A stretch of 64,000 bases of DNA from Pseudomonas helvetica. Its GTDB lineage: Bacteria; Pseudomonadota; Gammaproteobacteria; Pseudomonadales; Pseudomonadaceae. The DNA lies in the NCBI RefSeq assembly GCF_039908645.1, contig NZ_CP150917.1:2739501-2803500 (forward strand), in the 5' to 3' direction. The notes beneath the pieces were generated by a model, which made no database searches, was not told the DNA's origin, and was given only the letters and a program-made list of their open reading frames with translations. Both the position numbers and the translations under genes were made by a program. Below, piece after piece: positions 1 through 14,178 of this stretch (the stretch's first letter is position 1; each line of letters begins with the position of its first letter).

Positions 1-160
1 CGTCTTTCGGGCTCAGTTGCTCCAGCGGTTTGCCACCACCGGCGGCGAGGGCATCGAGGAAGGCCTGGGTGTTGTGTTCGACGCCGGGGCTGCCGGCGGC
101 GAAAGCGTTGCCGATGGACAGGGCGAGGAGGGAAGCGCTGAGGGTTTGCTTGATGTTCAT
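1..160 (-). CDS. Secreted alpha/beta hydrolase, N-terminal part only
   Basis: The reading frame starts at 160 on the minus strand and runs off the left edge, so only 53 residues are visible. They show a Sec signal peptide (MNIKQTLSASLLALSIGNAFA) and the start of a mature chain containing GVEHNTQAFLDALAAGGG. This start is typical of a Pseudomonas family of exported alpha/beta hydrolases (acetyl esterase/lipase type). The catalytic residues lie outside the window, so the enzyme class rests on recalled family resemblance. A GGAATTG stretch lies just upstream of the ATG. The gene is divergent from the LysR gene at 321, which could regulate it. Confidence 0.6.
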   Translation of the reverse strand, partial: MNIKQTLSASLLALSIGNAFAAGSPGVEHNTQAFLDALAAGGGKPLEQLSPKD

Positions 161-320
161 GGTCAATTCCTTTTTCAATCGTTCGAGTTTTTATGCCTTG
201 GGATCGGGCTGCTGTGACGCTGGGGTTCAGGTCTCAGCAACACTGTGAGCACAGATTAATGAGGTGCCTGAAAGTGAAAAAGCGGCTATAAAGCGTTTAA
301 CTGTCAACCAGGGAGTGACA

Positions 321-1214
321 ATGAACCCGTTCGAAGACATGCGTATTTTTTGCCAGGTCATGGACTCCGGCAGCTTCACGGCGGCGGCCGATCAGTTGGG
401 CCTGTCCAAGCAGTTCGTCAGCCGCCGGCTGATGCAATTGGAGGAGCGCCTCGGCGTGCGGCTGCTCAACCGCTCGACTCGGCGACTGGACGTCACGCCC
501 CTGGGGCAGAGTTATTACGAGTCGGCCTTGCGCCTGCTCAGCGAAGTCGAACACGTGGAGCAGGGCATCGCCGGCCAGACCGCCGAGCCACGCGGCACCA
601 TTCGCTTGAGCGCGCCGTTGTCGTTCGCGGTGGCGCACTTGGGGTGCCTGCTGCCGGTGTTCTTGCAGCGCTATCGCGACGTCACGGTAGAAGTGGACTT
701 GAGCGACCGGCCTGTGGACTTGCTCGGCGAAGGCTACGACCTGGCATTGCGCATTGGCGTGCTGGAAGACTCGACGCTGATCGCCCGACGCCTCGCCGCC
801 ATCCAGCGGGTGTACTGCGCCAGCCCGGCCTACCTGGCCGAGCGCGGTACGCCGGTTCACCCCGAAGACTTGCACAGCCATGACTGCCTGCCTTACGGCC
901 ATGGTCGCCAGGTGCAATGGCGGTTCGAAGGGCAGGGCAAACCACTGACCGTGAACGTCACCGGAAGGATGCGGGTCAACAACGGTGAATTGCTCAAGGA
1001 CGCGGCCATCGCCGGCATGGGCATTACTTATTTGCCGACCTTCATTGTCGGTTCGGCCTTGAAGGACGGGCGGCTGGTGCCGGTGCTGGACAACTTCCGC
1101 CCTGCGCCGTTGACGTTATCGGCAGTCTATCCGCAGCATCGCCAGGGCTCGCGACCGGTGCAGGCGTTGATCGAATTCTTGCGTGAACGGCTGGATCGGA
1201 CCGAGGACGCCTGA
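321..1214 (+). CDS. LysR-family transcriptional regulator
   Basis: This 297-residue protein has an N-terminal winged helix-turn-helix (about residues 1-60, with AAADQLGLSKQFVSRRLMQL) and a LysR substrate-binding domain (about 90-290). The short DMRIFCQVMDSGSFTAAA opening is typical of the DsdC/PtxR-like one-domain activators in Pseudomonas. The ATG at 321 follows a good ribosome site (AGGGAGTGACA). An upstream in-frame ATG at 264 would add an AT-rich leader without family resemblance. The gene is divergent from the hydrolase at 1-160 and lies 120 bases before the isochorismatase-like gene. Either may be its target; the effector is unknown. Confidence 0.85.
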   Translation: MNPFEDMRIFCQVMDSGSFTAAADQLGLSKQFVSRRLMQLEERLGVRLLNRSTRRLDVTPLGQSYYESALRLLSEVEHVEQGIAGQTAEPRGTIRLSAPLSFAVAHLGCLLPVFLQRYRDVTVEVDLSDRPVDLLGEGYDLALRIGVLEDSTLIARRLAAIQRVYCASPAYLAERGTPVHPEDLHSHDCLPYGHGRQVQWRFEGQGKPLTVNVTGRMRVNNGELLKDAAIAGMGITYLPTFIVGSALKDGRLVPVLDNFRPAPLTLSAVYPQHRQGSRPVQALIEFLRERLDRTEDA

Positions 1215-1334
1215 GGCGGTGGGCGTAAAAAGAAATTTTATCAGCATGATTTTTCCAGAGTCGCACATCCATACAATCGCTCTGCTACAGCGAAGCCGAA
1301 AATAGCCCCTCTCAAACATATCCGGAGAAGTGTT

Positions 1335-1988
1335 ATGGCAACCGCAAAAGCAGCACCAGGTAAAGGTCTGATCAATCCAAGCAACCACGCTCTGATCCTG
1401 ATCGACTTTCAGTCGCAGATGTCATTTGCGACCAAATCCATCGACGCTGTTTCACTCCGCAATAACGCTGCACTGATCTCCAAGGCAGCGAAGGAGTTTG
1501 GCGTTCCGGCCATTCTTACCACCGTCGCCGAAAAAAGCTTTTCGGGCCCGATGTTTGAAGAAATCACCTCGGTTTTTGCCGGTCAGGAACTGATTGACCG
1601 CACCAGCATGAATACCTGGGAAGACGAGCGCATAGCTGTCGCTGTGAACAAGATCGGTCGCGACCGTATTGTTCTTGCCGGTCTCTGGACTTCGGTCTGC
1701 ATTGTCGGCCCGGCGATCTCGGCGCTTGAACAAGGCTTCGAGGTCTACATCATTTGCGATGCGTGCGGTGACGTTTCGGATGAGGCTCATGAGCGCGCTA
1801 TCGAGCGCATGATTCAAGCCGGTGCGCGTCCGATGACCTCACTCCAGTACTTGCTGGAACTGCAACGTGACTGGGCTCGCAGCGACACCTATAACGAGAC
1901 GGTGAAAACCTCTATCGCTCACGGCGGCGCTTATGGTCTTGGTTTGATTTATGCCAAAACCATGTTTAACGCATCGGAAGGTCACTGA
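1335..1988 (+). CDS. Isochorismatase-family cysteine hydrolase (YcaC-like)
   Basis: The 217-residue protein has the isochorismatase/nicotinamidase fold. Asp24 lies in ALILIDFQ and the nucleophile Cys122 in LAGLWTSVC, followed by a cis-peptide-type hydrophobic stretch. The C-terminal part (HGGAYGLGLIYAKTMF) resembles the YcaC branch, whose members are octameric hydrolases of unknown physiological substrate. The start ATG has a GGAGAAG ribosome site. The gene reads in the same direction as the LysR gene before it and the DoxX gene after it, but gaps of 120 and 68 bases leave the operon uncertain. Catalysis is inferred from the two conserved residues only. Confidence 0.8.
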   Translation: MATAKAAPGKGLINPSNHALILIDFQSQMSFATKSIDAVSLRNNAALISKAAKEFGVPAILTTVAEKSFSGPMFEEITSVFAGQELIDRTSMNTWEDERIAVAVNKIGRDRIVLAGLWTSVCIVGPAISALEQGFEVYIICDACGDVSDEAHERAIERMIQAGARPMTSLQYLLELQRDWARSDTYNETVKTSIAHGGAYGLGLIYAKTMFNASEGH

Positions 1989-2056
1989 TCTGAATTGCGC
2001 CTCTTCCTTGATAGGGGAAGAGGCGCACTCAGGCGAGCGGTGGGGAGCAATGGAAC

Positions 2057-2485
2057 ATGTCCACATCTGATATGAATACGACGACTGCAGCGGATGTAGC
2101 GCTGTGTTGGCTACGCATCACCGGTGTACTGATGCTGTTGCTGGTGCACGGATTGCCTAAGCTGTTCAATTTTGAGCACGAACTGACGTTGATTGAAGAC
2201 CCGTTTGGCATGGGGGCTCGGTTGACCTTGTCGCTGGCAATTTTCGCGGAAGTGTTTTGTCCGATATTCATCGCAGTGGGACTGCTGACGCGCCTTGCGA
2301 CACTGCCTGTGCTCTTTTTGCTGGTTGTCTCGGTTATCCGGGTTCATCCCGAGTGGAGCCTGGCCGAGGGCCAGTTCGCCTGGCTGCTGCTGATCATCTT
2401 CTCGACGATTCTGGTCGGCGGGTCTGGGAAATTGGCAGTGGGTACGAGTCTGTCGCATCGCTGGCCACTCCTGAGCAAACTGTAG
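2057..2485 (+). CDS. DoxX-family inner membrane protein
   Basis: The 142-residue protein has four hydrophobic segments, and its first helix carries LRITGVLMLLLVHGLPKL. A glycine-rich third helix and the length fit the DoxX/SURF4-like family (DUF of the thiosulfate:quinone oxidoreductase small subunit type). Members are membrane proteins often found beside redox or detoxification enzymes. The ATG used (MSTSDMNTTT) has only a weak GGAAC ribosome site; the internal ATG at 2072 is an alternative. It sits 68 bases after the isochorismatase-like gene and may be cotranscribed with it. No substrate can be assigned. Confidence 0.75.
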   Translation: MSTSDMNTTTAADVALCWLRITGVLMLLLVHGLPKLFNFEHELTLIEDPFGMGARLTLSLAIFAEVFCPIFIAVGLLTRLATLPVLFLLVVSVIRVHPEWSLAEGQFAWLLLIIFSTILVGGSGKLAVGTSLSHRWPLLSKL

Positions 2486-2510
2486 GGAGGAAAGTATTAA
2501 TATTGGGTAT

Positions 2511-2573
2511 CAGAACGCCGGTTTGTTAGATGTGTTTGCTCGCACGAACATCATCTATCAAATCGGCGTTCTG
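2511..2573. repeat. 63-base imperfect palindrome downstream of doxX-like gene
   Basis: The sequence CAGAACGCCG at 2511-2520 is repeated as its exact reverse complement at 2564-2573. Pairing continues inward with mismatches through TTTG and TAGATG to a TGTT/AACA core. The whole 63 bases can form one long stem. There is no T run on either side, so it is not a classical terminator. It could be a mobile-element relic, an attenuator-like structure or mRNA-stabilising hairpin. The rest of the gene-free stretch 2486-2873 is AT-richer and shows nothing else I can name except the promoter region of the gene at 2874. Confidence 0.6.
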
Positions 2574-2873
2574 GTTTCTGTGTTTCCTGGTATTCCGTGA
2601 AGAGCCAGAAAATATGGTTTCCTTTCGACTGAACGTTAAGACGTAGCCTTCAACTGGTATATGAATGGGAGGTTTGGATAAGTCTCTGGAAAATGAGAGG
2701 CGTACGGTACAAGCGTTAGCTATTTCGATTTCCTCGCACATCAACAGCCATTAATAAAAGCGGCCCTTTGGCACTGATTACATCGTTTCTCGGGTGCAAT
2801 CCTTTTGACTATATTGGCGACCAGACCCGGCGAATGACTCAACAGTCGCCACCCTTCAGTGCGAGTAGTCTCA

Positions 2874-4151
2874 ATGAACAATAAACCTGACAGCGCAGGG
2901 CTTGATAACGCCGGAACGGGAACCCGAGCGGTCTGGGGCGGGGAGCAAGTCAGGCACCCCTATAACGCCACGCAAACACCTATCGTGGTCAGTGCCGCCT
3001 ACGGTTACGACGACATTGACGTCTGGTACGACGTGGCTTTGGGCAAGGCTCCGGGATTTATCTACAGCCGCATGAGCAACCCGACGGTCGAGACCCTCGA
3101 AGCGAAAATTTGCGAGTTGGAAAAGGCCGAGTCCGCGGTGGCCTTCAGCAGCGGCATGGCGGCCATCAGCAGTGTGCTTTATACCTTCCTTGCCCACGGC
3201 AATCGGGTAGTTTCCACCAAGGACAGCTACGGCGGCACCAACAAGATTTTCGAAGAGTTCCTGCCGCGCATGGGGGTGGACGTGACCTTGTGCGAAACCT
3301 TCGATCATGACGAGATCGAGCGTGAAGTCGCCAAAGGCTGCCAGGTGCTCTACCTGGAAACTCCGACCAACCCGACTCTGAAAATACTCGATATCCAACG
3401 TCTGGTGAGTGCGGCCAAGCGCGTCGGCGCCGTGGTGGTGGCGGACAATACCTTCGCCACTCCGTTGAATCAGAATCCCCTGGCATTGGGCGTAGACGTA
3501 GTCATCCACAGCGCGACCAAGTTCCTCAGCGGCCATGGCGATGTGCTTGGCGGTCTGGTGTGCGGCGTTGAATCCTTGATGGCCAAGGTTCGTCATTACC
3601 GGGAAATCAACGGTGCGGCGCTTGATCCCTTCTCGGCCTATTTGATCATCCGGGGCATGAAAACCCTGGCACTGCGGATGCGTCAGCAACAACACAGTGC
3701 CCGTGCCCTGGCAGAGTTCCTGAGCAACGAGCCCCTTGTGGAATCGGTGAACTATCCCGGCTTGCCCGGTCATCCGAACCACGCTGTGGCGTGCGCGCAA
3801 ATGCGCGGGTTCGGCGCCATCGTCAGTTTTGTCCTGGTCGGTGGCATGGACACCGTCAAAGTACTGTTACCACGCCTGCGCTTTGCCCATTGCGCGGGGA
3901 ATCTGGGCGCGGTGGAAACCATCTACGGCCCGGCCAGGACCACCAGTCATGTGGAGAACACGCTGGAGGAGCGTTTGGCCTTGGGCATTTCCGAAGGGCT
4001 GGTGCGGGTTTCGGTCGGCATCGAAGACACCGACGATTTGCTCGACGATCTGAAGCAGGCATTCGCCTATGTCAGGCGCTCACGGCATGAACAGGTACAG
4101 GTAAAAACACAACCCTCAATCAATGAATCTTGCACCGAGGTACCCAACTAA
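2874..4151 (+). CDS. PLP-dependent cystathionine gamma-synthase-family enzyme (candidate gamma-lyase)
   Basis: The 425-residue enzyme belongs to the Cys/Met metabolism PLP family (fold type I). The Schiff-base lysine is K216 in HSATKFLSGHGDVLGG. Other family marks are SSGMAAISSVL, YLETPTNPT and VADNTFATP. The usual GHSD is GHGD here. Family members perform gamma-elimination or gamma-replacement on homoserine esters, methionine, cystathionine or canavanine. The next genes handle homoserine, so I infer an enzyme whose product is homoserine or its precursor vinylglycine, not a biosynthetic MetB/MetZ. The ATG at 2874 is preferred; an in-frame GTG at 2859 is possible. The true substrate is not readable from sequence. 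Confidence 0.8.
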   Translation: MNNKPDSAGLDNAGTGTRAVWGGEQVRHPYNATQTPIVVSAAYGYDDIDVWYDVALGKAPGFIYSRMSNPTVETLEAKICELEKAESAVAFSSGMAAISSVLYTFLAHGNRVVSTKDSYGGTNKIFEEFLPRMGVDVTLCETFDHDEIEREVAKGCQVLYLETPTNPTLKILDIQRLVSAAKRVGAVVVADNTFATPLNQNPLALGVDVVIHSATKFLSGHGDVLGGLVCGVESLMAKVRHYREINGAALDPFSAYLIIRGMKTLALRMRQQQHSARALAEFLSNEPLVESVNYPGLPGHPNHAVACAQMRGFGAIVSFVLVGGMDTVKVLLPRLRFAHCAGNLGAVETIYGPARTTSHVENTLEERLALGISEGLVRVSVGIEDTDDLLDDLKQAFAYVRRSRHEQVQVKTQPSINESCTEVPN

Positions 4152-4302
4152 AGTTTCAAAGTTAATGCCTCACGACAAGGCAGTCTATGAGGACTTCATG
4201 AAGAGGAATAATAATAAAACTTAGTGGCAACCTGTTTTTATTCTGCCCAGTAACTCATCGCAGAAGTGAATGCGTGCCCTAATAACTTTCATGAGAACAA
4301 TC

Positions 4303-5733
4303 ATGTCCATAAAAGAACAACAGCTCAACGCGCGTGCTGGTTTTAAACAGGAAATGCAGACCCGCCATATTGTCATGTTGGCATTGGGCGGTGTCATTGG
4401 TACCGGGCTTTTCCTCACGTCCGGATACACTGTCAACCAAGCCGGCCCCTTGGGGGCGGTTATCGCTTATATCATCGGCGCGCTCATGGTCTACATGGTC
4501 ATGATGTGCCTGGGCGAGCTGGCAGTGCAGATGCCGGAAACCGGCTCGTTCAGCACCTACGCCACACGCTTTCTCGGCCCGGGGACCGGTTACACGGTGG
4601 CCTGGCTTTACTGGTTGACCTGGACCGTGGCTATTGGCTCGGAATTCACTGCCGCCGGTATCCTTATGGCGCGCTGGTTCCCACAGACTCCGGTATGGAT
4701 CTGGAGTGCGCTGTTCGCTGGAGTGGTGTTTCTGACCAATGTGATTTCGGTGCGCTTGTTCGCCGAGACTGAGTTTTGGTTGTCTCTGGTCAAGGTGGTG
4801 ACGGTGGTAGTGTTCCTGCTGATCGGCGGCGGGGCGATTCTCGGCCTGTTGCATATCGATCAGGCTCACAGTATTGGCCTGGGCAACTTCACCCGTGAGG
4901 GCTTGTTTCCCACTGGGTTCATGTCGATTGCCATGACCTTGCTCGCTGTGTCATTTGCCTTCTCTGGCACCGAGCTGATCGGTATCGCTGCCGGCGAAAC
5001 CAAGGACCCGCAACGCAACGTGCCGCGAGCGATTCGCACCACGGTGCTGCGCCTGGCGATCTTCTTTGTCGGTACCATCTTCGTCCTGGCGACCTTGCTT
5101 CCCCGGGAACAGGCCGGGCTGGTGGAGAGTCCGTTCGTCACGGTGTTCACCTACATCGGTATTCCGTACTCCGCCGACATCATGAACTTCGTGATCATCA
5201 GCGCCTTGCTGTCCGCCGCCAACTCCGGACTTTACGCCGCCTCGCGGATGCTCTGGACCTTGAGCGACCAGGGTCACCTGCCCAAGCAGTTCTCGGTCCT
5301 GACCCGCATGGGCACGCCGTTGAATGCCATCGTGTTGAGCATGGTCGGTGGCGCGGCGTCGTTGCTCAGTAGTGTGTTTGCCGCCGACACCATCTACCTG
5401 GCGTTGGTGTCGATTTCCGGGTTGGCAGTGGTGGTGGTATGGATGAGCATTGCTGCGAGCCAGATCGCTTTCCGTCGACACTATGTGGCCAATGGCGGTG
5501 ATATCCACGACCTGAAGTTCCGCGTGCGGGGTTACCCATGGGTGCCACTGGGGGCGCTGGCCAGCTGCAGCCTGGCCTGTGTCGGGATCGCCTTCGACCC
5601 TGAGCAGCGGGTGGCCCTGTACTTCGGTGTGCCGTTCATCGCCTGGTGCTACTTCGTGTATTACATTACCCGCAAAAGCCGCGAGCGCCGCTTGTCGCTT
5701 GCTCCCTTGGCACAACCGTCCGATGCGTTCTAG
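4303..5733 (+). CDS. APC-superfamily amino acid permease, MmuP-like
   Basis: The 476-residue protein has about 12 membrane helices and the amino acid permease signature ([20 protein letters not shown] near residue 32). Long stretches such as [16 protein letters not shown] and [16 protein letters not shown] recall the E. coli S-methylmethionine permease MmuP and the LysP/AnsP group. It should be a proton-coupled inner-membrane importer of an amino acid. The start ATG at 4303 has a GAGAAC site. ATGs at 4270 and 4291 are in frame and cannot be excluded. It lies 151 bases after the PLP enzyme and probably imports that enzyme's substrate. Confidence 0.85.
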
Positions 5734-5793
5734 ACATTGTCGACGAGGTGGGCAAACGTGCTCGGTGCGGGGGGCGTCAATGAGGTCCAGGCC

Positions 5794-6684
5794 ATGAAGC
5801 AAAAGACGTTACCCCCATTGAACTGGCTGCGAGCATTTGAGGTGTCCGCTCGCTGTCTGAACTTCACCCACGCCGCCGAAGAGCTGTTTTTGACTCAAGG
5901 CGCAATCAGCCAGCAGATCCGCCAATTGGAAAGCCACCTTGGGGTGGCGCTGTTCAAGCGCTTGCCTCGTGGTCTGGGTTTGACCGAGGAAGGCCAAGCC
6001 TATCTGCCGGTGGTACAGGATGCGATTACCCGGTTGGCGGTGGGGACCAACGAGATTTTTGGTCAGCACAAGCGCCGGCCCATCAAGGTACGCGGCAGCC
6101 TGTCGTTTTTCGTGCACTGGCTGGCGCCCAAGCTGGTGGACTTTCGGCAGGCCCATCCGCATGTCGACATCCGTTACATCAGCAACATCTGGGTCAAGGA
6201 GCTCGATGGCGAAGACGACATGGAGATACGCTGGGGCCATGGACAATGGCCGGGGCTGGTGTCTCAGCGTCTGACCTGGGACACCTTGTTCCCGGTTTGC
6301 TCGCCGGCTCTGATGGCCCGCTCGCCGCTGAAGGTGCCAGAGGATGTGGTGCACCATCCACTGCTGCATGTCCTGGGTTACGAAGAAGGTTGGGGTTACT
6401 GGTTGAATATGGTCGGTGCGCACGCCGTCGACTCGTCCACCGGTATGCAGTTCGATACCCTGATTTCCACGTTACGCATGGCCGAGCTAGGGCAGGGCAT
6501 TGCGCTGGCCCGCTCGTCCATGGTCGACGAAATGCTTGAGGACGGGCGTCTGGTCGAGCCCTTCGCGCAACGTATCGAGGCCAGCGAGTCGTTTTACCTG
6601 GTGCGGGGGGCCGAGGCCGATCAGCACCCTGACGCGGTGATGTTTTCCACCTGGCTGGTCGAGCAGGCACATCGTTATAAATGA
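5794..6684 (+). CDS. GcvA-type LysR regulator of the amino acid island
   Basis: The 296-residue protein opens with LPPLNWLRAFEVSARCLNFT and contains FLTQGAISQQIRQLE. These are hallmarks of the GcvA/AmpR branch of LysR regulators. The effector domain spans about residues 90-290. The ATG at 5794 follows GAGGTCCAGG. The gene sits inside the island, 60 bases after the permease and 16 bases before the threonine-synthase-like gene, so all are probably one transcript. A regulator placed within its own operon usually controls that operon's response to its substrate; this is inference. Confidence 0.85.
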   Translation: MKQKTLPPLNWLRAFEVSARCLNFTHAAEELFLTQGAISQQIRQLESHLGVALFKRLPRGLGLTEEGQAYLPVVQDAITRLAVGTNEIFGQHKRRPIKVRGSLSFFVHWLAPKLVDFRQAHPHVDIRYISNIWVKELDGEDDMEIRWGHGQWPGLVSQRLTWDTLFPVCSPALMARSPLKVPEDVVHHPLLHVLGYEEGWGYWLNMVGAHAVDSSTGMQFDTLISTLRMAELGQGIALARSSMVDEMLEDGRLVEPFAQRIEASESFYLVRGAEADQHPDAVMFSTWLVEQAHRYK

Positions 6685-6700
6685 ATGGCCGGAGTCAACC

Positions 6701-8080
6701 ATGCGCTATGTGAGTACACGAAGTTCGGCCGTACAGGCTGATTTCGAGAAGGTTGTGTTATCCGGCGTTGCCGACGACGGCGGGCTGTTCGTGCCTGTTG
6801 GCCTGCCGCTATTCGAGCCACAGGAAATCGCCAATTGGTCGACCTTGCCCTATGACGAACTGGCCTATCGGGTCATCAGTCCTTTTGTCGGCGATGCCAT
6901 TCCCGAGGCGGATTTCAAACGCCTGCTGAAGGAGGCCTACAGTACCTTTAGCCATCGCTCCGTCGCGCCCTTGCACCAGGTCGACCGCAATGAATGGGTG
7001 CTGGAACTGTTCCATGGGCCGACCTGTTCCTCGAAAGACTTTGCCGCCCAGCTACAGGCGCGACTGGTGCAATACTTTCTGCGCAAACGCCAGCGCCGCG
7101 GAATCGTCCTGGGGGCCACCAACGGCGATACCGGGCTGGCCGCCATCGAGGCGTTCAAGCACTGCGACGATACGATGGTAGTGGTGATCTATCCGGAGTC
7201 CGGCATGCCGGAGCAGCAGTTACAGGATCTGCAGGCGGTGGCTCATCCCAGGGTCCACAGATTCGCGGTAAATGGCAGCTTCGACGAGTGCCAGACCATC
7301 GTCACCCGATTGTTCCGGCAATGGCCGTGCGCGCAATACGAGGCCATCAGTTTCAACTCGAACAACTGGGTCGGTGTGCTGGCGCAGCTAGTGTTTTATT
7401 TCCATGCCGTGCTGCAACTGGGGGGTGGACAGCGCCCCATCGGCTTCAGTGTGCCAGCGGCGAGTTTCGCTGAAGTCTACGCCGGCTATATTGCGCAAAA
7501 GATGGGCCTGCCTATTACCCAGATGATTGTCGCAACCAATCAAAACGACGCGCTGCATCAGTTGTTCCTGAAAAACCACTACTCCCGGTTGCGGGCCAAC
7601 AAGACCTTGTCTCCGGCTATGGACTTGTCGATCTTTTCCAACCTCGAGCGCTTTCTCTGGGAACTCTATGGACACGACTATCAGGCGGTGAGCGCATTGA
7701 TGGTCGAGTTCGAATCCAGCGGCGAGATGAGCATCGCCAACGAGTTCTGGCTACGGGCGCGGATGATCATCGATTCCTACTCGGTCAGTGATGAGCAGAC
7801 CCTGAAGGAAATCACCTCGCTGTATCGCGATACCGGTTATGTCATCGACCCTCATGCCGCCACTGGTGTCCTCGCGGCCCGGTTGTACCGCCGAAGTCTT
7901 GTGGCGCCCATGGTCACCCTGGGCGAGATCTCACCGGCCAAGTCCGCGCTACTGCTCGGCGAACTGGGGATCACCGCGCCGGCTCGGCGCAGCCCGGTGC
8001 CGGGGCAAGGGCCGTCACAGGTTTACCGGATTCAGCCCGATGACCTCGAGATCATCCATCAACTGCTCGGCGCTCTGTGA
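6701..8080 (+). CDS. Threonine-synthase-like PLP enzyme, divergent paralogue
   Basis: The 459-residue protein is full length for a ThrC of the proteobacterial type. It keeps the N-terminal domain (MRYVSTRS) and the PLP lysine K112 in ELFHGPTCSSKDF. Several conserved motifs are altered: ATSGDTG reads ATNGDTG, and the usual NSINWARxLAQ reads NSNNWVGVLAQ. Threonine synthase converts O-phosphohomoserine to threonine, but no homoserine kinase lies nearby. The protein may therefore have another beta/gamma-replacement or elimination role on a homoserine-like compound. It starts 16 bases after the LysR gene with a GGAG site and is followed closely by the AsnC regulator. Confidence 0.8.
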   Translation: MRYVSTRSSAVQADFEKVVLSGVADDGGLFVPVGLPLFEPQEIANWSTLPYDELAYRVISPFVGDAIPEADFKRLLKEAYSTFSHRSVAPLHQVDRNEWVLELFHGPTCSSKDFAAQLQARLVQYFLRKRQRRGIVLGATNGDTGLAAIEAFKHCDDTMVVVIYPESGMPEQQLQDLQAVAHPRVHRFAVNGSFDECQTIVTRLFRQWPCAQYEAISFNSNNWVGVLAQLVFYFHAVLQLGGGQRPIGFSVPAASFAEVYAGYIAQKMGLPITQMIVATNQNDALHQLFLKNHYSRLRANKTLSPAMDLSIFSNLERFLWELYGHDYQAVSALMVEFESSGEMSIANEFWLRARMIIDSYSVSDEQTLKEITSLYRDTGYVIDPHAATGVLAARLYRRSLVAPMVTLGEISPAKSALLLGELGITAPARRSPVPGQGPSQVYRIQPDDLEIIHQLLGAL

Positions 8081-8101
8081 AGACGCTGTAAAGGAGGCTA
8101 A

Positions 8102-8539
8102 GTGAAGCGAATTCTGGATCCTCTCGATGAGCGCATCATCGCCGAACTGCGGCTCAATGCCCGGGTCGCCCACGCCGAGTTGGCGGCCAGGGTCAACCTG
8201 TCGCGTAATGCCGTACGCCAGCGCATCGAACGGCTCGAGCGCGACGGGGCGATACAGGGCTACACGGTGCGTACGGGGGAGGGGCGGCAGACTTCTTCGA
8301 ATATCAATGCGGTGATTTTCGTCTATCGCTACGATCGTATGCGTGGCGCGGAAGTGCTGCTGGCCCTGCGGCAGATTCCGGAAGTTATCCAGTGCGATGT
8401 CATGAGCGGCGAGTTCGATCTGATGCTGCGGGTCGGTGCCGCGAGCCCGGAGCGAGTGCATAAAGTCTGGAATGAAATATCCGCGTTGCCTGGGGTGGAA
8501 AACACCGTAACCTCATTCGTGCTTTCGTCTGTTGTCTAG
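8102..8539 (+). CDS. AsnC/Lrp-family transcriptional regulator
   Basis: The 145-residue protein starts with GTG at 8102 behind an ideal AAGGAGG site at 8091-8097. The N-terminal helix-turn-helix (about residues 5-60, with AELAARVNLSRNAVRQRI) is followed by an Lrp-type ligand-binding domain of the RAM/ACT-like fold (about 70-145, with MSGEFDLMLRV). Such proteins are oligomeric amino acid sensors. It is the last gene of the first transcript in the island and is followed by a strong terminator. A matching AsnC-type palindrome lies in front of the homoserine dehydrogenase gene. It probably controls that promoter in response to an amino acid. Confidence 0.9.
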   Translation: MKRILDPLDERIIAELRLNARVAHAELAARVNLSRNAVRQRIERLERDGAIQGYTVRTGEGRQTSSNINAVIFVYRYDRMRGAEVLLALRQIPEVIQCDVMSGEFDLMLRVGAASPERVHKVWNEISALPGVENTVTSFVLSSVV

Positions 8540-8554
8540 CCGCTTTGCCCCGAT

Positions 8555-8583
8555 AAAAAAGCCAACTCATGTTGGCTTTTTTT
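8555..8583 (+). terminator. Rho-independent terminator after the AsnC gene
   Basis: The perfect stem GCCAAC/GTTGGC has a four-base TCAT loop, flanked by an A6 run before and a T7 run after. It can work in both directions and closes the 2.9-8.5 kb transcript. Confidence 0.9.
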
Positions 8584-8631
8584 ATGCCTGACGTTTTGCC
8601 CAGCCACTGGTCAAAACGCCCATGAAATAGA

Positions 8632-8649
8632 GCAAATAGCCATATTTCA
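8632..8649. promoter_or_regulatory. Candidate AsnC/Lrp operator in front of homoserine dehydrogenase
   Basis: GCAAATAGCCATATTTCA is an inverted repeat. GCAAATA and TATTTCA flank a four-base centre and differ from perfect dyad symmetry at one position. The AT-rich half sites and spacing resemble Lrp/AsnC sites. It lies 66 bases before the ATG at 8715 and about 90 bases after the end of the AsnC-family gene. Binding by that protein is inferred from position and symmetry. Confidence 0.5.
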
Positions 8650-8714
8650 CTGCCTTGGCTGCCCGCCTAATCTAGTGCCCAGTAACCCATCATTCGGATC
8701 AAGGGCAATAAAAA

Positions 8715-9758
8715 ATGACTGAATACAAACTGGCGCTGGTCGGCTTCGGTGGTGTCAACCGGGCATTGGCTCAACTGATTGCCGAGCGTAACGAAAGCTG
8801 GAAGAAAGAATTGGGGTTTACCCTGAAAATTGTCGGTGTCACCGACCTGTTCCTCGGCTGCGTGATTGGCTGCGAAGGACTGGATGCCGGTCAGCTGGCT
8901 AACTTGCCTGCGGTCAAGGGTGCTCTGGCGCAGTTGCCGGGAGGGGATGCCGAAGCCTTCAATGAAGCTGTGATCAAACACTCCGGTGCGGACATCGTTG
9001 TCGAAGCGACTTTCACCAACCCGGTCGACGGTGAGCCGGCCACCTCGTTCTGTCGCTGGGCGCTGGAAGGCAGCAAGCATGTGGTCACCACCAACAAGGG
9101 GCCGATTGCCTTGCACGCTGCAGAGCTCAAGGACCTCGCTCGACGCAATAACGTCGCCTTTGAATATGAAGGCTCGGTGATGAGCGGCACTCCGGTGATC
9201 CGCCTGGCCAAGCAGTCGTTGGCGGGCAGCTCGATACTCGGCTTCGAGGGGATTCTCAATGGCACCTCCAACTTTGTGTTGAGCAGCATGGAAGACGGGC
9301 TGGGGTTCGCCGAGGCGGTAAGCAAGGCTCAGGAACTGGGCTACGCCGAAGCCGACCCGACTGCGGATGTCGAGGGGCATGATGTACGCCTCAAAGTAGT
9401 GATCCTGGCCAATGAACTGCTGGACGCCAAACTGAACGTCAGCGATGTCAGCTGCAAGGGTATTTGCGGCCTCAACCTCAGTGATATCGAAAGAGCCCGT
9501 CAGGACGGTGCGCGCTGGAAGCTCATCGGCGCCGCCACACGGCATGCCGATGGTTCGGTCAGTGCCCATGTCGAACCCCGGCTGCTGAGCAACGATCACC
9601 CGCTGGCCGGTATCTGCGGTGCAACTAACGCGGTGTCATTCACTACCGGTTTGCTCGGCACGGTGACGGTCTCGGGGCCGGGGGCCGGGCGCACGGAAAC
9701 CGCATTCGCACTGCTCTCGGACATCATCAATATCCATCAGTCCGTTGCACACAACTAG
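8715..9758 (+). CDS. Homoserine dehydrogenase without ACT domain
   Basis: The 347-residue enzyme interconverts L-homoserine and L-aspartate 4-semialdehyde with NAD(P). It shows the Rossmann motif VGFGGVNRA, a lysine K128 in [12 protein letters not shown], the substrate-site sequence [14 protein letters not shown] and [12 protein letters not shown]. The usual biosynthetic enzyme has a C-terminal ACT domain of about 80 residues for threonine feedback. This one ends before it, which suits a catabolic role. It is followed after 10 bases by an aldehyde dehydrogenase that could take the semialdehyde onward. A separate promoter region with a palindrome precedes it. Confidence 0.88.
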
Positions 9759-9768
9759 GAGAAGGCCT

Positions 9769-11181
9769 GTGAACCTATCGCGTCCGGCCCTGGCCATTGT
9801 GGAGAATCAAATTGATGTACTGAACCCCTTTGACGGCAGCGTCGTCGGGGCCGTAGCGGACGTCTGTATGACACAGGTTCCGCAGTTGCTGGAGCAAGGC
9901 CGCAAGGGAGCTCAGGCCAGCGCCGGGTTACCGCGTTATCTCCGGGCACGGATCCTTGAACAGGCGGCATTGAGTATAGAGCGCGATGCCCGCGCTTTTT
10001 CCCGGTTGATCGTCGACGAAGCCGGCAAGACCCTCAAGCAGGCAGAGAAAGAAGTCAAACGGTGTATCAACACCCTCAAGCTTTCCGCGCAAGAGGCCAC
10101 GCGCAATGCTGGCGAAGTGTTGCCGTTCGACGCCTATGAAGGCTCCGAGTCGCGGCAGGGCTGGTTCTCCCGCGAACCACTGGGCTTGATTGTGGCGATC
10201 ACCCCGTACAACGATCCGTTGAATCTGGTAGCACATAAGCTCGGCCCGGCGATTGCCGGCGGCAACGCGGTGATTCTCAAACCGTCCGAGCTGGCGCCGT
10301 TGTCGGCCATCAGGTTGGTGAGGTATCTGGTCGAGTCCGGGCTGCCGGAGTCAGTGGTCACGGTCGCCACCGGCGGGGCAGAGTTGGGCAGGGCCCTGGT
10401 AGCCGCCCGTGAGGTACGGATGATTTCCTTTACCGGTGGATTCGCTACGGGTGAGCAGATTGCCCGTATCGCTGGCCTGAAGAAATTGACCATGGACCTG
10501 GGCGGCAATGCGCCGGTGATCGTGATGGGCGACTGCGACCTTGACGCGGCCGTCGAGAGTTGCCTGTCCGGGGCCTTCTGGGCGGCGGGACAGAACTGCA
10601 TCGGCACTCAGCGCCTGTTGGTCCAGGCCTCGATCTATGAGGCTTTCCGCGAGCGCTTCGTCAATCAGGCTCAGGCTCTGGTGGTTGGCGACCCGGCGCT
10701 GGCTGGCACCGACATCGGCCCAATGATTACCCCGCAGGCGGCGAAACAAGCTGAGCAAATGGTGAGCGAAGCCCTGCTGGAGGGCGCCAGGTTACTGTGC
10801 GGTAATCAGCGTCAGGGCGCATGCTACACAGCGACCGTGCTGGAAAATGTCGATCACGCCAGCCGGCTGTGGCGCAACGAAGTGTTTGCTCCGGTGGTGA
10901 TGTTGCAGCCCTTCGAGACCTTCGATGAGGCTATCGCCCTGGCGAACGAACCGGAATACAGCCTGCATGCGGGGATCTTCACCAATAATCTGGCAACGGC
11001 CATGAGCGCTGCGCGCAGGATCGAAGCCGGGGGCGTGATGATCAACGACTCCTCCGACTATCGCTTCGATGCGATGCCATTTGGTGGCTTCAAGTACGGC
11101 AGCCTGGGGCGGGAAGGGGTGCGCTTCGCCTATGAGGAAATGACGCAACCCAAGGTGGTGTGTCTGAATATCCTTCGTTAG
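9769..11181 (+). CDS. Aldehyde dehydrogenase (candidate aspartate-semialdehyde oxidising)
   Basis: The 470-residue protein starts at GTG 9769 behind AGGAGAAGG, 10 bases after the homoserine dehydrogenase. It has the ALDH fold with the nucleophile Cys277 in [11 protein letters not shown] and NAD-site motifs ITPYNDPLN and SFTGGFATG. At the position of the usual catalytic glutamate (LELGG) it has Asp243 in [12 protein letters not shown]. Pairing with homoserine dehydrogenase suggests oxidation of aspartate semialdehyde to aspartate. Relatives of the phosphonoacetaldehyde/sulfoacetaldehyde type give an alternative. The substrate is inference. Confidence 0.8.
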
Positions 11182-11231
11182 GTGATTCAAGGAAAAAAAG
11201 CCACTGCTTGTTTGGCATTGGGACGGTTTGG

Positions 11232-11396
11232 TCACCGTCCCAGTGCTTTGTTCGCGTTGTAGAACATCTCGATTTAATCGAAAACATCGCAACGGGCATC
11301 TTGCCGCGTGGTATGGATTTTTGGCGTGATCCGTTCCTGCTTTAGACGCTGAAAAAGCTCTCGGCTATGGCGTTGTCGTAGCCGTTCTGCAGCTGC
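11232..11396 (-). pseudogene. IS3-family transposase remnant (C-terminal end)
   Basis: On the minus strand the sequence reads YDNAIAESFFSV, then after a one-base shift LKQERITPKIHTTRQDARC. It continues DVFD-stop-IEMFYNANKALGR and then a stop. This is the DDE C-terminus of IS3-type OrfB transposases (typical form DNAxAESFFxxLKxER...DVFDYIExFYN). It has one frameshift and one internal stop, so it is dead. No terminal inverted repeats were recognised. The gene-free stretch 11182-11574 holds this relic and the promoter region of the porin gene. Confidence 0.8.
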
Positions 11397-11574
11397 TCAC
11401 AAGGCTTGCACCTTAAGTAGTGCATCGTGGCGTGACCCGGTCAGGGTCCAAATCATCGCGCTATACCCACTGACCCAAAGCATCTGCCAACCCCTTCCAA
11501 GGCACCGTATAAGGCTGTTCGCCAGCTTTCGATAATCGCCTCCGACATTTCGTCCCCCGATTCCGGAGCGCGCC

Positions 11575-12759
11575 ATGCACAACAACAATAAGAATTTGCC
11601 CCAGCTTCTGCCAGCGGTCATTGTCGGCCTGTCGATGCTTGGCCTGAGCACTATCGCCAAGGCCGATATCATGCTGTACGACAAGGACCAGACCACGTTC
11701 TCTACCGACGGCTACATCAATGCCTTTTACGTGAACAGCAAGGTTGATCGCGCCGGCGATCAGTTCGACCGCCGCCAGGCCCGGGTGAAGATGGGGTTTC
11801 TGCCCAACTATCTGGGCTTCAACATGGGCAAGCAGGTCGATGACCTGAAACTCGGGGCCCGGGCGTCCTTCTGGGTGACCATCAACGATAGCCAGACCAA
11901 GGGCACCGACACCGCCATCGACGTGCGCCAGTTCTATGGCACCGTGGCCAATCCGGAATGGGGCGAGGTGCTGATCGGTAAGGATTTCGGGCTGTTTGCG
12001 CGCTCCAACATCCTGCTCGATGAACTGCTCTCCGGGTATGGTCAGGTCAGCGATAGCCTGGGCTTGGTCGATGGCGGCGGGGTGTCGTTCGGCAATATCG
12101 GCAGCGGTTATCCGTACCCATTCCCCACCTCGCAGATCACCTACCGCACGCCGGTCATGGACGGCTTGCGAGTCGCGGTGGGCATCATGGATCCGGTGAG
12201 CACCAACGACAGCAGCCCGACCGGCAAGGCCTATCAGCAGAACCCTCGCACCGAGAGCGAGATCACTTACCAGTTCGATGTCGCGGGGGCGAAAATTTAC
12301 AGTTGGGTCAACGGCAGCTACCAGACCTCGGACAACACCGACTCTACCGTCAACTCGGTCACCTCCAAAGGCGTCGGTTACGGTGTGCAGGCGAAGATGG
12401 GCGGCCTGTCGCTCACCGGTTCCGGCTTTCAGGCCAAGGGTATCAATCCGTTCTTTACCAACAACGCCGGCCAGCCGACCCTGAGAAATGTCGACAGCGA
12501 TGGCTACTTGCTGCAGGGCTCCTACACGCTCGGCAAGAATCGCCTGGCGCTGTCTTATGGCAAAACCAAGGACGATGGTAATGGCGTAGTCGGCAGCGGG
12601 GCGGATTACCAAACCCGCGGTGTGGCACTGTTCCATGAGGTCAATGACAACCTCAAGCTGGTTGCCGAATACAACCAGTTTGAAATCAAAGGCCATCAAA
12701 CCATTGCCCAGAACGAGAATACCGATACCTTCGCCGTCGGGGCCGTGCTGACCTGGTAA
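11575..12759 (+). CDS. Outer-membrane porin of the Gram-negative general porin type
   Basis: The 394-residue protein has a signal peptide ending near STIAKA, followed by DIMLYDKDQTTFSTDGYINAFY and alternating beta strands throughout. It ends in an aromatic residue (VLTW), as needed for barrel assembly. A loop-3-like segment (ARSNILLDELLSGYG) precedes the second half. It fits the Burkholderia/Pseudomonas porin_4 group. Lying directly before the PQQ alcohol-oxidation genes, it may admit alcohols or related small substrates to the periplasm. The substrate is not known. Confidence 0.85.
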   Translation: MHNNNKNLPQLLPAVIVGLSMLGLSTIAKADIMLYDKDQTTFSTDGYINAFYVNSKVDRAGDQFDRRQARVKMGFLPNYLGFNMGKQVDDLKLGARASFWVTINDSQTKGTDTAIDVRQFYGTVANPEWGEVLIGKDFGLFARSNILLDELLSGYGQVSDSLGLVDGGGVSFGNIGSGYPYPFPTSQITYRTPVMDGLRVAVGIMDPVSTNDSSPTGKAYQQNPRTESEITYQFDVAGAKIYSWVNGSYQTSDNTDSTVNSVTSKGVGYGVQAKMGGLSLTGSGFQAKGINPFFTNNAGQPTLRNVDSDGYLLQGSYTLGKNRLALSYGKTKDDGNGVVGSGADYQTRGVALFHEVNDNLKLVAEYNQFEIKGHQTIAQNENTDTFAVGAVLTW

Positions 12760-12788
12760 CCCCCCGATCATCCGCCCGGCTGTCTTTG

Positions 12789-12816
12789 CAGGCGCGATCG
12801 CCAGGATCGCCGCCTG
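12789..12816 (+). terminator. Hairpin after the porin gene
   Basis: CAGGCGCGATC pairs with GATCGCCGCCTG with a one-base bulge and a small loop. It lies 30 bases after the porin stop. It lacks a T run, so it is only a possible terminator or mRNA-end stabiliser. Confidence 0.35.
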
Positions 12817-13014
12817 TTGCAGTGCCTGTTCAGATGGCTGCACACACACACATCCCATAGGCACCGCCGAAGACTGCGACCCTTCGGCGGCAACGCCTGA
12901 TCGACTGGCCTTTTCATCCCATGGAAGCGGTTAACCCCTACCCAAGTAGCATTCGTGGCCCCCGGCAGACTTCGTACACTCAGGCCTCGTATTGCGCGCC
13001 GGCAGGAGGCGAAG

Positions 13015-14178
13015 ATGCAGCAGGCCCAGAATGAGGGTGTCGTCAGTGCAATGTCCCAGGCGACCGATGCCCGGCTGGTGGCCCAGGAACTGGCGCGACA
13101 GCTGTTACACCCGCACTTGGGCTTCGTGCTGTTTTTCTGTTCCGCCGAATACGATTTGCAGGCCCTGGGCATAGCCCTGGAGCAGAGTTTCGGCGGTATC
13201 CGCCTGGTGGGTTGCACCAGCGCCGGCGAAATCACGCCCCTTGGCTATGGCCGCAATTGCGTGACAGCGGTCGGTTTCGATCATCGGCACTTTTCCATCG
13301 CCACCGAACGGATCGACGAAATGGAACGCTTCAGCCTGATCGACGCCCAGCGGATGGTCGAGAGGCTGGTCAGCGACTGTCGCAGCAACACCCTGGCGCC
13401 GATCAAGGGCAACAGCTTCGCCCTGACCCTGCTTGATGGCCTGTCCAGTCGTGAAGAGATGGTCCTGGCTGCCTTGAGCGCGGCACTGGGGGACATTCCG
13501 CATTTCGGTGGCTCTGCCGGCGACGACAATTACCTGACTCACACTCACGTCTATTTCGATGGTGAATTCCATTGCGGCGCGGCGGTGGTGGTGCTGGTCA
13601 ATACCTGGCTGGATTTCGAAGTGTTCACCACCCATCACATCCTGCCCCGCGAAGAGAAGCTGGTGGTGACGGGTGCTGACAGTGCCCAGCGTCGGGTCTT
13701 CGAGCTTAACGCCGAGCCCGCCGCCGAAGAGTACGCGCGCCACATCGGTGTGCCGGTGGCCGAGCTCGATCACCGGGTATTCGCCGCCCACCCGCTGGCG
13801 GTGCGGATCCACGACCAGTATTACGTCCGGGCGATCCAGCAGGTTCATCCGGACCTGAGCCTGAGTTTTTATTGTGCGGTGGAGAACGGCATCGTGCTGA
13901 CCGCCATGACCCCCGGGCCCATGCTGCCGAATCTGCAACATTTGTTCGACGGTTTGCAGGCGCGCCTCGGCGAGCTGCTGCTGACCATCGGTTGCGATTG
14001 TTTTCTCCGGCGCCTGGAGCTGGAAGACGGAGATGGCCTGGAACAGATCGGCGCGTTTTTGCGCGAGCAGCGGGTGATGGGTTTCAACACCTATGGAGAA
14101 CAGTTCAATGGCATGCACATCAACCAAACCTTCACCGGAGTTGCCATTGCCCGGAACCGAACCCCTGTCAGTCGTTGA
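13015..14178 (+). CDS. nosP: FIST-domain sensor, NosP-like
   Basis: The 387-residue protein carries a FIST domain (about residues 30-220, with LVGCTSAGEITPLGYG and GGSAGDDNYL) and a FIST_C domain (about 230-370). In P. aeruginosa the FIST protein next to the hybrid kinase NahK/ErcS' is NosP, a haem-based nitric oxide sensor. The order here is the same, and the next gene starts inside this one. The ATG at 13015 has an AGGAGG site; upstream in-frame codons lack one. It should be cytoplasmic and act by modulating the kinase. Haem binding cannot be confirmed by eye. Confidence 0.85.
   Translation: MQQAQNEGVVSAMSQATDARLVAQELARQLLHPHLGFVLFFCSAEYDLQALGIALEQSFGGIRLVGCTSAGEITPLGYGRNCVTAVGFDHRHFSIATERIDEMERFSLIDAQRMVERLVSDCRSNTLAPIKGNSFALTLLDGLSSREEMVLAALSAALGDIPHFGGSAGDDNYLTHTHVYFDGEFHCGAAVVVLVNTWLDFEVFTTHHILPREEKLVVTGADSAQRRVFELNAEPAAEEYARHIGVPVAELDHRVFAAHPLAVRIHDQYYVRAIQQVHPDLSLSFYCAVENGIVLTAMTPGPMLPNLQHLFDGLQARLGELLLTIGCDCFLRRLELEDGDGLEQIGAFLREQRVMGFNTYGEQFNGMHINQTFTGVAIARNRTPVSR

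Follow-up and report, generated by a model that had tools for sequence, protein, structure and literature searches.

The window analysed here is a 64,000-nucleotide stretch of Pseudomonas helvetica (contig NZ_CP150917.1), spanning bases 2739501-2803500 in a genome of 6.44 Mb that forms a single contig. Our subject is an island of seven genes within it, encoding an enzyme dependent on pyridoxal 5′-phosphate (PLP), an amino acid permease, a LysR-type regulator, a threonine-synthase-like (ThrC-like) enzyme, an Lrp/AsnC regulator, a homoserine dehydrogenase (HSD) and an aldehyde dehydrogenase (ALDH). A first-pass annotation, made from the letters alone, had described these as same-strand genes in this order that would import an amino acid with a gamma leaving group, cleave it to homoserine and oxidize the product to aspartate; the window's open reading frames and profile matches bear out the gene content and order, with all seven genes on the + strand (Table 1). 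A known homoserine module is headed here by a gamma-lyase family that has no assigned substrate, and we predict from the genomes, with moderate confidence, that the island imports S-methylmethionine (SMM), a sulfonium amino acid common in plants, and degrades it via homoserine to aspartate.

Table 1. Genes of the island and the block upstream of it, in window coordinates
Feature	Position	Strand	Basis
Promoter/operator-like block, CCATTAA...GATnnCATCGTTT...TATA	2746..2818	+	Conservation upstream of the PLP gene
PLP-dependent Cys/Met-metabolism enzyme, predicted S-methylmethionine gamma-lyase giving homoserine	2874..4151	+	NCBIfam PRK08249 family, NF006097
MmuP-like amino acid permease	4303..5733 (likely ATG 4303)	+	APC family; MmuP identity
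LysR-type regulator, GcvA-like	5794..6684 (likely ATG 5794)	+	Profile match
Threonine-synthase-like enzyme	6701..8080	+	TIGR00260, 192.5 bits (cut-off 167.1); PLP Lys kept
Lrp/AsnC regulator	8102..8539	+	Profile matches; relatives in canavanine-type operon
Homoserine dehydrogenase without ACT domain	8715..9758	+	NF004912, 459 bits (cut-off 373)
Aldehyde dehydrogenase, predicted aspartate-semialdehyde dehydrogenase	9769..11181, GTG start	+	PF00171, 469.7 bits

Conservation of the island and its upstream block

Named genomes were scanned with patterns of the window PLP protein, a procedure that favours close relatives, and the best 80 of 98 loci were kept. Of these, 75 are titled Pseudomonas; the closest named relative in the scan, Pseudomonas sp. 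H3(2019), carries a PLP gene 99% identical to that of the window. The complete set of seven genes, on one strand and in the same order, is present in 70 of the 80 loci. The ten exceptions comprise four marine loci with a partial set only (L069, L076, L083 and L086), four loci that run into contig ends (L036, L042, L047 and L078, with L047 also lacking a matched permease) and two full-length Pseudomonas loci without HSD or ALDH in the flank (L044 and L054). The cluster is old and is not due to chance. A second sample, drawn evenly from the genus Pseudomonas, comprises 298 genomes. A PLP orthologue of at least 79% identity occurs in 56 of them (the next match by E-value being 42% identical), and a window-type HSD of at least 73% identity likewise occurs in 56; the two coincide in 55 genomes, leaving one with the PLP gene only (G126) and one with HSD only (G161). 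The PLP family is rare outside the genus, exceeding its cut-off in 7 of 390 genomes of the order and 3 of 398 Pseudomonadota genomes, the window genome being included in both counts.

Two flanking candidates for membership were rejected. Both genes of the upstream isochorismatase-DoxX pair adjoin the island only in the 99% identical relative (L010) among the 80 loci, isochorismatase-family matches lying further away in L054, L072 and L077; the downstream porin-like gene is beside the island in none of the 80. The latter (window 11575-12759) has no Pfam or NCBIfam match and, by reading, is predicted to encode a porin-like, secreted protein. Separately, a 2696 aa open reading frame interrupts the island between Lrp and HSD in one genome (G111, L151:4527-12617).

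Comparison among the loci identified a conserved block about 125 bases ahead of the PLP gene. Its pattern, CCATTAA-N53-57-TATA, is found in 73 of 80 loci at 107-158 bases ahead of the match start, and the block is weaker yet recognisable in Marinomonas and Oceanospirillales loci (scores of 13-41, with other best sites below 0); it is not recognisable in L143, which holds a PLP enzyme 60% identical to that of the window. The block matches once in the whole window genome at up to three mismatches, no second copy being found, for example, at the genome's own methyltransferase gene. No gene accompanies the PLP gene more constantly than LysR, which lies beside it at 63-69% identity in eight of nine loci outside Pseudomonadaceae; the ninth, L143, showed no copy, its contig ending a short way upstream. 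We infer that LysR binds at this block. A search of window 1-16000 gave no Rfam match at gathering score to a guanidine or other known riboswitch, and scans for sigma-70 promoters and terminators gave no excess over shuffles.

A homoserine module shared with canavanine operons

In the HSD, domain matches are limited to NAD-binding and Homoserine_dh, which confirms the annotated lack of an ACT domain, and the protein exceeds the cut-offs of PRK06270 and PRK06349; the second HSD frame in the window genome is 444 aa long. As had been noted, ALDH follows closely, starting 10 bases past the HSD stop codon. None of the 25 best families listed for ALDH passes its own cut-off, and the motifs FWAAGQNC and MDLGGN are common to the window copy and to those of canavanine-type operons. 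A group of HSDs from homoserine-rich habitats that strongly favours homoserine oxidation is described in PMC10228743. We predict that the window HSD runs toward aspartate semialdehyde.

The formation of homoserine by a canavanine operon has been published for P. canavaninivorans, now named P. alvandae (PMC10018355). We represented this operon by loci of relatives with neighbours like CtdA, the canavanyl-tRNA deacylase, a standalone B3/4 gene. The B3/4 domain was searched in 50 genomes of the 80 loci, and eight places with a standalone gene were retrieved, four of which (L097, L099, L100 and L101) hold relatives of the window's downstream genes. Identities to the window across these four operons are 39-41% for the ThrC-like protein, 59-61% for Lrp and 70-71% for ALDH; HSD is 68-70% identical in three of them, none being found in L097. 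In another locus (L153) the gene row reads CtdA, a dihydrodipicolinate-synthase-like protein, an FMN-binding protein, ThrC-like, Lrp, HSD, ALDH, permease and PLP enzyme. That relatives of HSD and ALDH (68-71%) and of Lrp sit in a CtdA-flanked operon supports the annotated feed of homoserine into HSD and ALDH, and we consider it probable that this route, a gamma-lyase-family enzyme supplying the two dehydrogenases, holds.

The same comparison bears on canavanine itself, which the first-pass annotation had offered as a candidate and which would be imported and split to hydroxyguanidine and homoserine. The matching downstream Lrp-HSD-ALDH gene types and the PF01053 enzyme speak for it. The CtdA-linked operon, however, has its own lyase, only 33-34% identical to the window enzyme in three loci (none lies in the L099 stretch) and placed in a separate, well-supported group of the tree described below; its homologue P0235 (73%) is named canavanine-gamma-lyase by the source, and the UniRef name of P0217 from Rhizobium leguminosarum starts 'Canav', most other homologues being generically named. 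No standalone B3/4 gene was found in the window genome, in which the sole PF03483 match is a 795 aa frame that we take to be PheT. The two systems also coexist: a canavanine-type HSD (68-69% identical to the window's) occurs in 13 sampled genomes, 10 of which also carry the window island, and one genome (G015) holds both a canavanine-type operon (L097) and a window-type island (L034). Because the canavanine operon has a different lyase, CtdA is absent here and both systems coexist, and with a permease that is MmuP-like, canavanine is a very improbable substrate. The island and the canavanine operon are paralogous modules with different front ends. What stands of the first-pass interpretation is a gamma-lyase-family enzyme feeding homoserine to HSD and ALDH, and what falls is canavanine as its substrate.

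The ThrC-like protein differs between the two modules. All 81 copies that have the window gene as best match keep the PLP lysine, whereas glutamine replaces it in all eight canavanine-type copies (L097, L099, L100, L101, L153, L155, L156 and L157, with L100 and L157 probably from one species); the canavanine-type protein thus looks like a pseudoenzyme or sensor retained in a catabolic operon. Neighbourhoods were annotated for three of the 13 genomes with a canavanine-type HSD (L152, L153 and L154), and two of these, L152:16016-19164 and L154:281-3084, are canavanine-type operons with CtdA and a window-type ThrC-like protein, 57-58% identical and with its lysine kept; the modules therefore exchange parts. 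A defence link was looked for with the ThrC-like gene, and none was found.

In the genome with HSD only (G161, L150:5665-11808), ThrC-Lrp-HSD-ALDH genes 69-79% identical to those of the window are joined by a permease and no gamma-lyase. The nearest model for this permease is a D-serine/D-alanine/glycine transporter (706.7 bits, below the cut-off of 732), and the variant perhaps uses homoserine directly. Its existence shows that the module combines with other inputs, and ThrC-Lrp-HSD-ALDH may be a common module with interchangeable front ends (a PRK08249 lyase, a canavanine-gamma-lyase or a permease only). This variant could also suggest that the window island uses only external homoserine, or homoserine from lactones, with the PLP enzyme as a side activity. 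Against this, the lyase is the first gene downstream of the conserved block and accompanies HSD in 55 of 56 genomes, and Marinomonas and relatives keep the lyase with LysR although the HSD module is missing. Homoserine itself, another of the annotated candidates, is made less likely as the substrate by the existence of the lyase-free variant, and its exclusive use is extremely improbable.

The lyase family and the case for S-methylmethionine

The PLP enzyme carries PF01053 and scores 740.6 bits against NF006097 (PRK08249; cut-off 600), a family whose name, 'cystathionine gamma-synthase family protein', states no tested substrate. The second-best family is the methionine gamma-lyase TIGR01328, at 383 bits against a cut-off of 549.7, and PRK07503 is likewise below cut-off (364.4 bits against 666). 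The window genome has its own cystathionine gamma-synthase (CGS, L001) and O-succinylhomoserine sulfhydrylase (OSHS, L002), both over cut-off. These two were included in a tree of 36 rows, together with 11 rows of the window family, six of the canavanine type, three methionine gamma-lyases over cut-off, E. coli MetB and MetC, and 12 unlabelled rows; 15 of the 27 fetched non-family loci entered it. The window family forms one branch (support 100/100) and the canavanine type another (100/99), and every one of the 200 bootstrap trees separates each group from all other rows by a single branch. The window clade stands apart from the methionine gamma-lyase, OSHS, CGS and canavanine-operon groups, on a long stem and with no characterised relative inside it among the rows used. 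The annotation had named a place among the biosynthetic cystathionine synthases as the outcome that would count against it, and in this tree the enzyme lies outside that clade (MetB/MetZ). Two long-branch joins are flagged as possibly false, that of the canavanine type with MetC and that of the window family with L110, a protein resembling methionine gamma-lyase but scoring below cut-off (88/80).

The window enzyme retains the PLP lysine as well as the YSRxxNPT motif. Ten family rows all have Asn123, Arg243-Glu244, Asp251 and Asn343, among which Asn123, Glu244 and Asp251 are specific to the family; the 60% identical relative deviates at Asp251. In methionine gamma-lyase an active-site cysteine follows the PLP-stacking tyrosine (YGC). 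The window enzyme reads YGGTN at this place, as opposed to YGC in methionine gamma-lyase rows and YQAVW in the canavanine type; YGG also occurs in the genome's CGS and in E. coli MetB, so that the motif alone does not separate the enzyme from those two.

These results weigh on a reading in which the enzyme is a methionine gamma-lyase or transsulfuration enzyme that recycles or degrades methionine together with a methyltransferase, HSD and ALDH having a separate function. The best-scoring solved structures for the enzyme are methionine gamma-lyases, and in some loci a homocysteine methyltransferase family gene is a neighbour. The enzyme is nevertheless far under the TIGR01328 cut-off and outside the corresponding tree groups, it has glycine where all 12 rows assigned to the methionine gamma-lyase side (three over cut-off, nine unlabelled) have the active-site cysteine, and HSD would be needless. 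We regard this reading as improbable.

The evidence for SMM comes from the permease, the methyltransferase neighbours and their co-occurrence across the genus. As the annotation proposed, the permease is MmuP-like, being 56% identical over 459 positions to E. coli MmuP, which is annotated as an S-methyl-L-methionine transporter; the figure for a canavanine-operon permease is 29%. Among the 79 named loci scored (L075 was left out), nine have a gene of the homocysteine S-methyltransferase family immediately next to the PLP gene. In six Pseudomonas loci this methyltransferase gene is collinear and immediately before the PLP gene (L050 from P. monteilii, L053 from P. putida, L085 from P. pudica, L070, L080 and L081) and lies next to a gene for an amino acid ABC transporter; in Marinomonas spartinae (L083 and L086) and an Oceanospirillales metagenome-assembled genome (L069) it is divergent, which suggests that the two arrangements are separate events. 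The window genome holds its methyltransferase away from the island (L158:7335-10002, contig C1 at about 6.33 Mb), divergent from an amino acid ABC transporter, and this pair is the one found beside the island in the six other Pseudomonas loci. Across the genus sample, a methyltransferase orthologue of at least 71% identity occurs in 44 of the 56 genomes with the PLP orthologue and in 85 of the 242 without it (counts that ignore kinship), and the collinear pair is seen by coordinates in 5 of the 56, perhaps of the same species. Given the MmuP-like permease, the methyltransferase adjacency and the genus-wide co-occurrence, SMM, also among the annotated candidates, is the best fit of those considered and, we judge, has a slightly better than even chance of being the substrate.

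Several observations weigh against this. The permease, at 654.7 bits, is below the MmuP cut-off of 716 (PRK11387), although the next family reaches only 395.5. The methyltransferase does not adjoin the island in most Pseudomonas loci, and 12 of the 56 genomes with the PLP orthologue have no methyltransferase orthologue; with no more than 27-28% identity to E. coli MmuM and scores under its cut-off, the methyltransferases have SMM as a candidate methyl donor only. In L138-L141, taken as Marinomonas, an amino acid ABC transporter replaces MmuP and no methyltransferase is nearby, M. balearica having neither. HSD or ALDH occurs in none of the nine loci outside Pseudomonadaceae within the stretch examined per locus. 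The 60% identical relative (G846, L143:7175-10576) overlaps by four bases an ectoine hydrolase doeA-like gene (548.5 bits, cut-off 613); doeB (483.5 bits, cut-off 402.7) comes next, and this ectoine context may reflect a second function of the PLP family.

Such points could favour another gamma-substituted substrate, for example an O-acyl or O-alkyl homoserine, a vinylglycine-type toxin or some compound beyond those considered, with the homoserine route kept and the permease and methyltransferase links coincidental. The homoserine module leaves the substrate unnamed, and the long stem of the PLP enzyme, its relative beside doeA-doeB and the permease score are all compatible with this. The 56% identity to MmuP and a methyltransferase adjacency that recurs in three lineages favour SMM instead, and we think another substrate unlikely.

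Predicted pathway and comparison with known systems

If SMM is the substrate, it would be taken up by the MmuP-type permease and form an external aldimine with the PLP enzyme, which would then eliminate dimethyl sulfide at C-gamma. Water would add to the resulting vinylglycine-type intermediate to give L-homoserine, a gamma-replacement by water comparable to that of canavanine-gamma-lyase, so that the net first step would be S-methylmethionine + H2O -> dimethyl sulfide + homoserine. HSD would convert homoserine to aspartate semialdehyde and ALDH would convert this to aspartate, which would enter central metabolism, both steps paralleling the canavanine pathway. The ThrC-like enzyme may serve a side branch and has the least certain role. 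LysR is probably the substrate sensor, acting at the upstream block, and Lrp would respond to amino acid products.

An enzyme of a soil bacterium with SMM sulfonium hydrolase activity was reportedly described in the 1960s. Conversion of SMM to dimethyl sulfide and homoserine in animal tissue is mentioned in a review (PMC13209565). A search of the open-licence literature found no SMM lyase gene. In P. putida KT2440 the island presumably corresponds to tags PP_0658-PP_0665; no paper was found for PP_0664, and the passages retrieved for other tags of the set mention neither SMM nor homoserine.

That the PRK08249 family is a bacterial SMM gamma-lyase attached to a module with interchangeable front ends, so that plant SMM would give rise to dimethyl sulfide both in the rhizosphere and, through Marinomonas relatives, at sea, is a proposal we hold to be as plausible as not. 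If true, it would provide a testable gene for the bacterial conversion of SMM to dimethyl sulfide and homoserine, and the database name 'cystathionine gamma-synthase family protein' would be misleading. Plant SMM would then feed an unrecognised source of dimethyl sulfide in soil Pseudomonas, independent of dimethylsulfoniopropionate and encoded in the 56 of 298 sampled genomes with an orthologue, and, via Marinomonas relatives, would also do so at sea. Homoserine catabolism would emerge as a reusable module with exchangeable gamma-lyases.

Four known systems frame this prediction. The canavanine operon of P. canavaninivorans and Rhizobium shares with the island its ThrC-like, Lrp, HSD and ALDH families and their order, as well as a PF01053 enzyme that forms homoserine; it differs in its PLP group and permease, and its ThrC-like protein has lost the PLP lysine that the island's has kept, while the island lacks CtdA and has its own LysR and upstream block. 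E. coli uses SMM as a methyl donor, and its mmuP-mmuM locus resembles the island in the MmuP-type permease and in the gene of the S-methyltransferase family that neighbours the lyase in some relatives of the island. The E. coli locus, however, has no gamma-lyase, and the methyltransferases found here are distant from MmuM. Methionine gamma-lyase (TIGR01328, PRK07503) shares the fold family, the PLP lysine and the best-scoring solved structures, but the window enzyme falls below its cut-offs, forms a separate group and has glycine for the active-site cysteine. The SMM sulfonium hydrolase activity, finally, is described as likewise yielding dimethyl sulfide and homoserine, whereas the reaction proposed here is predicted to be PLP-dependent.

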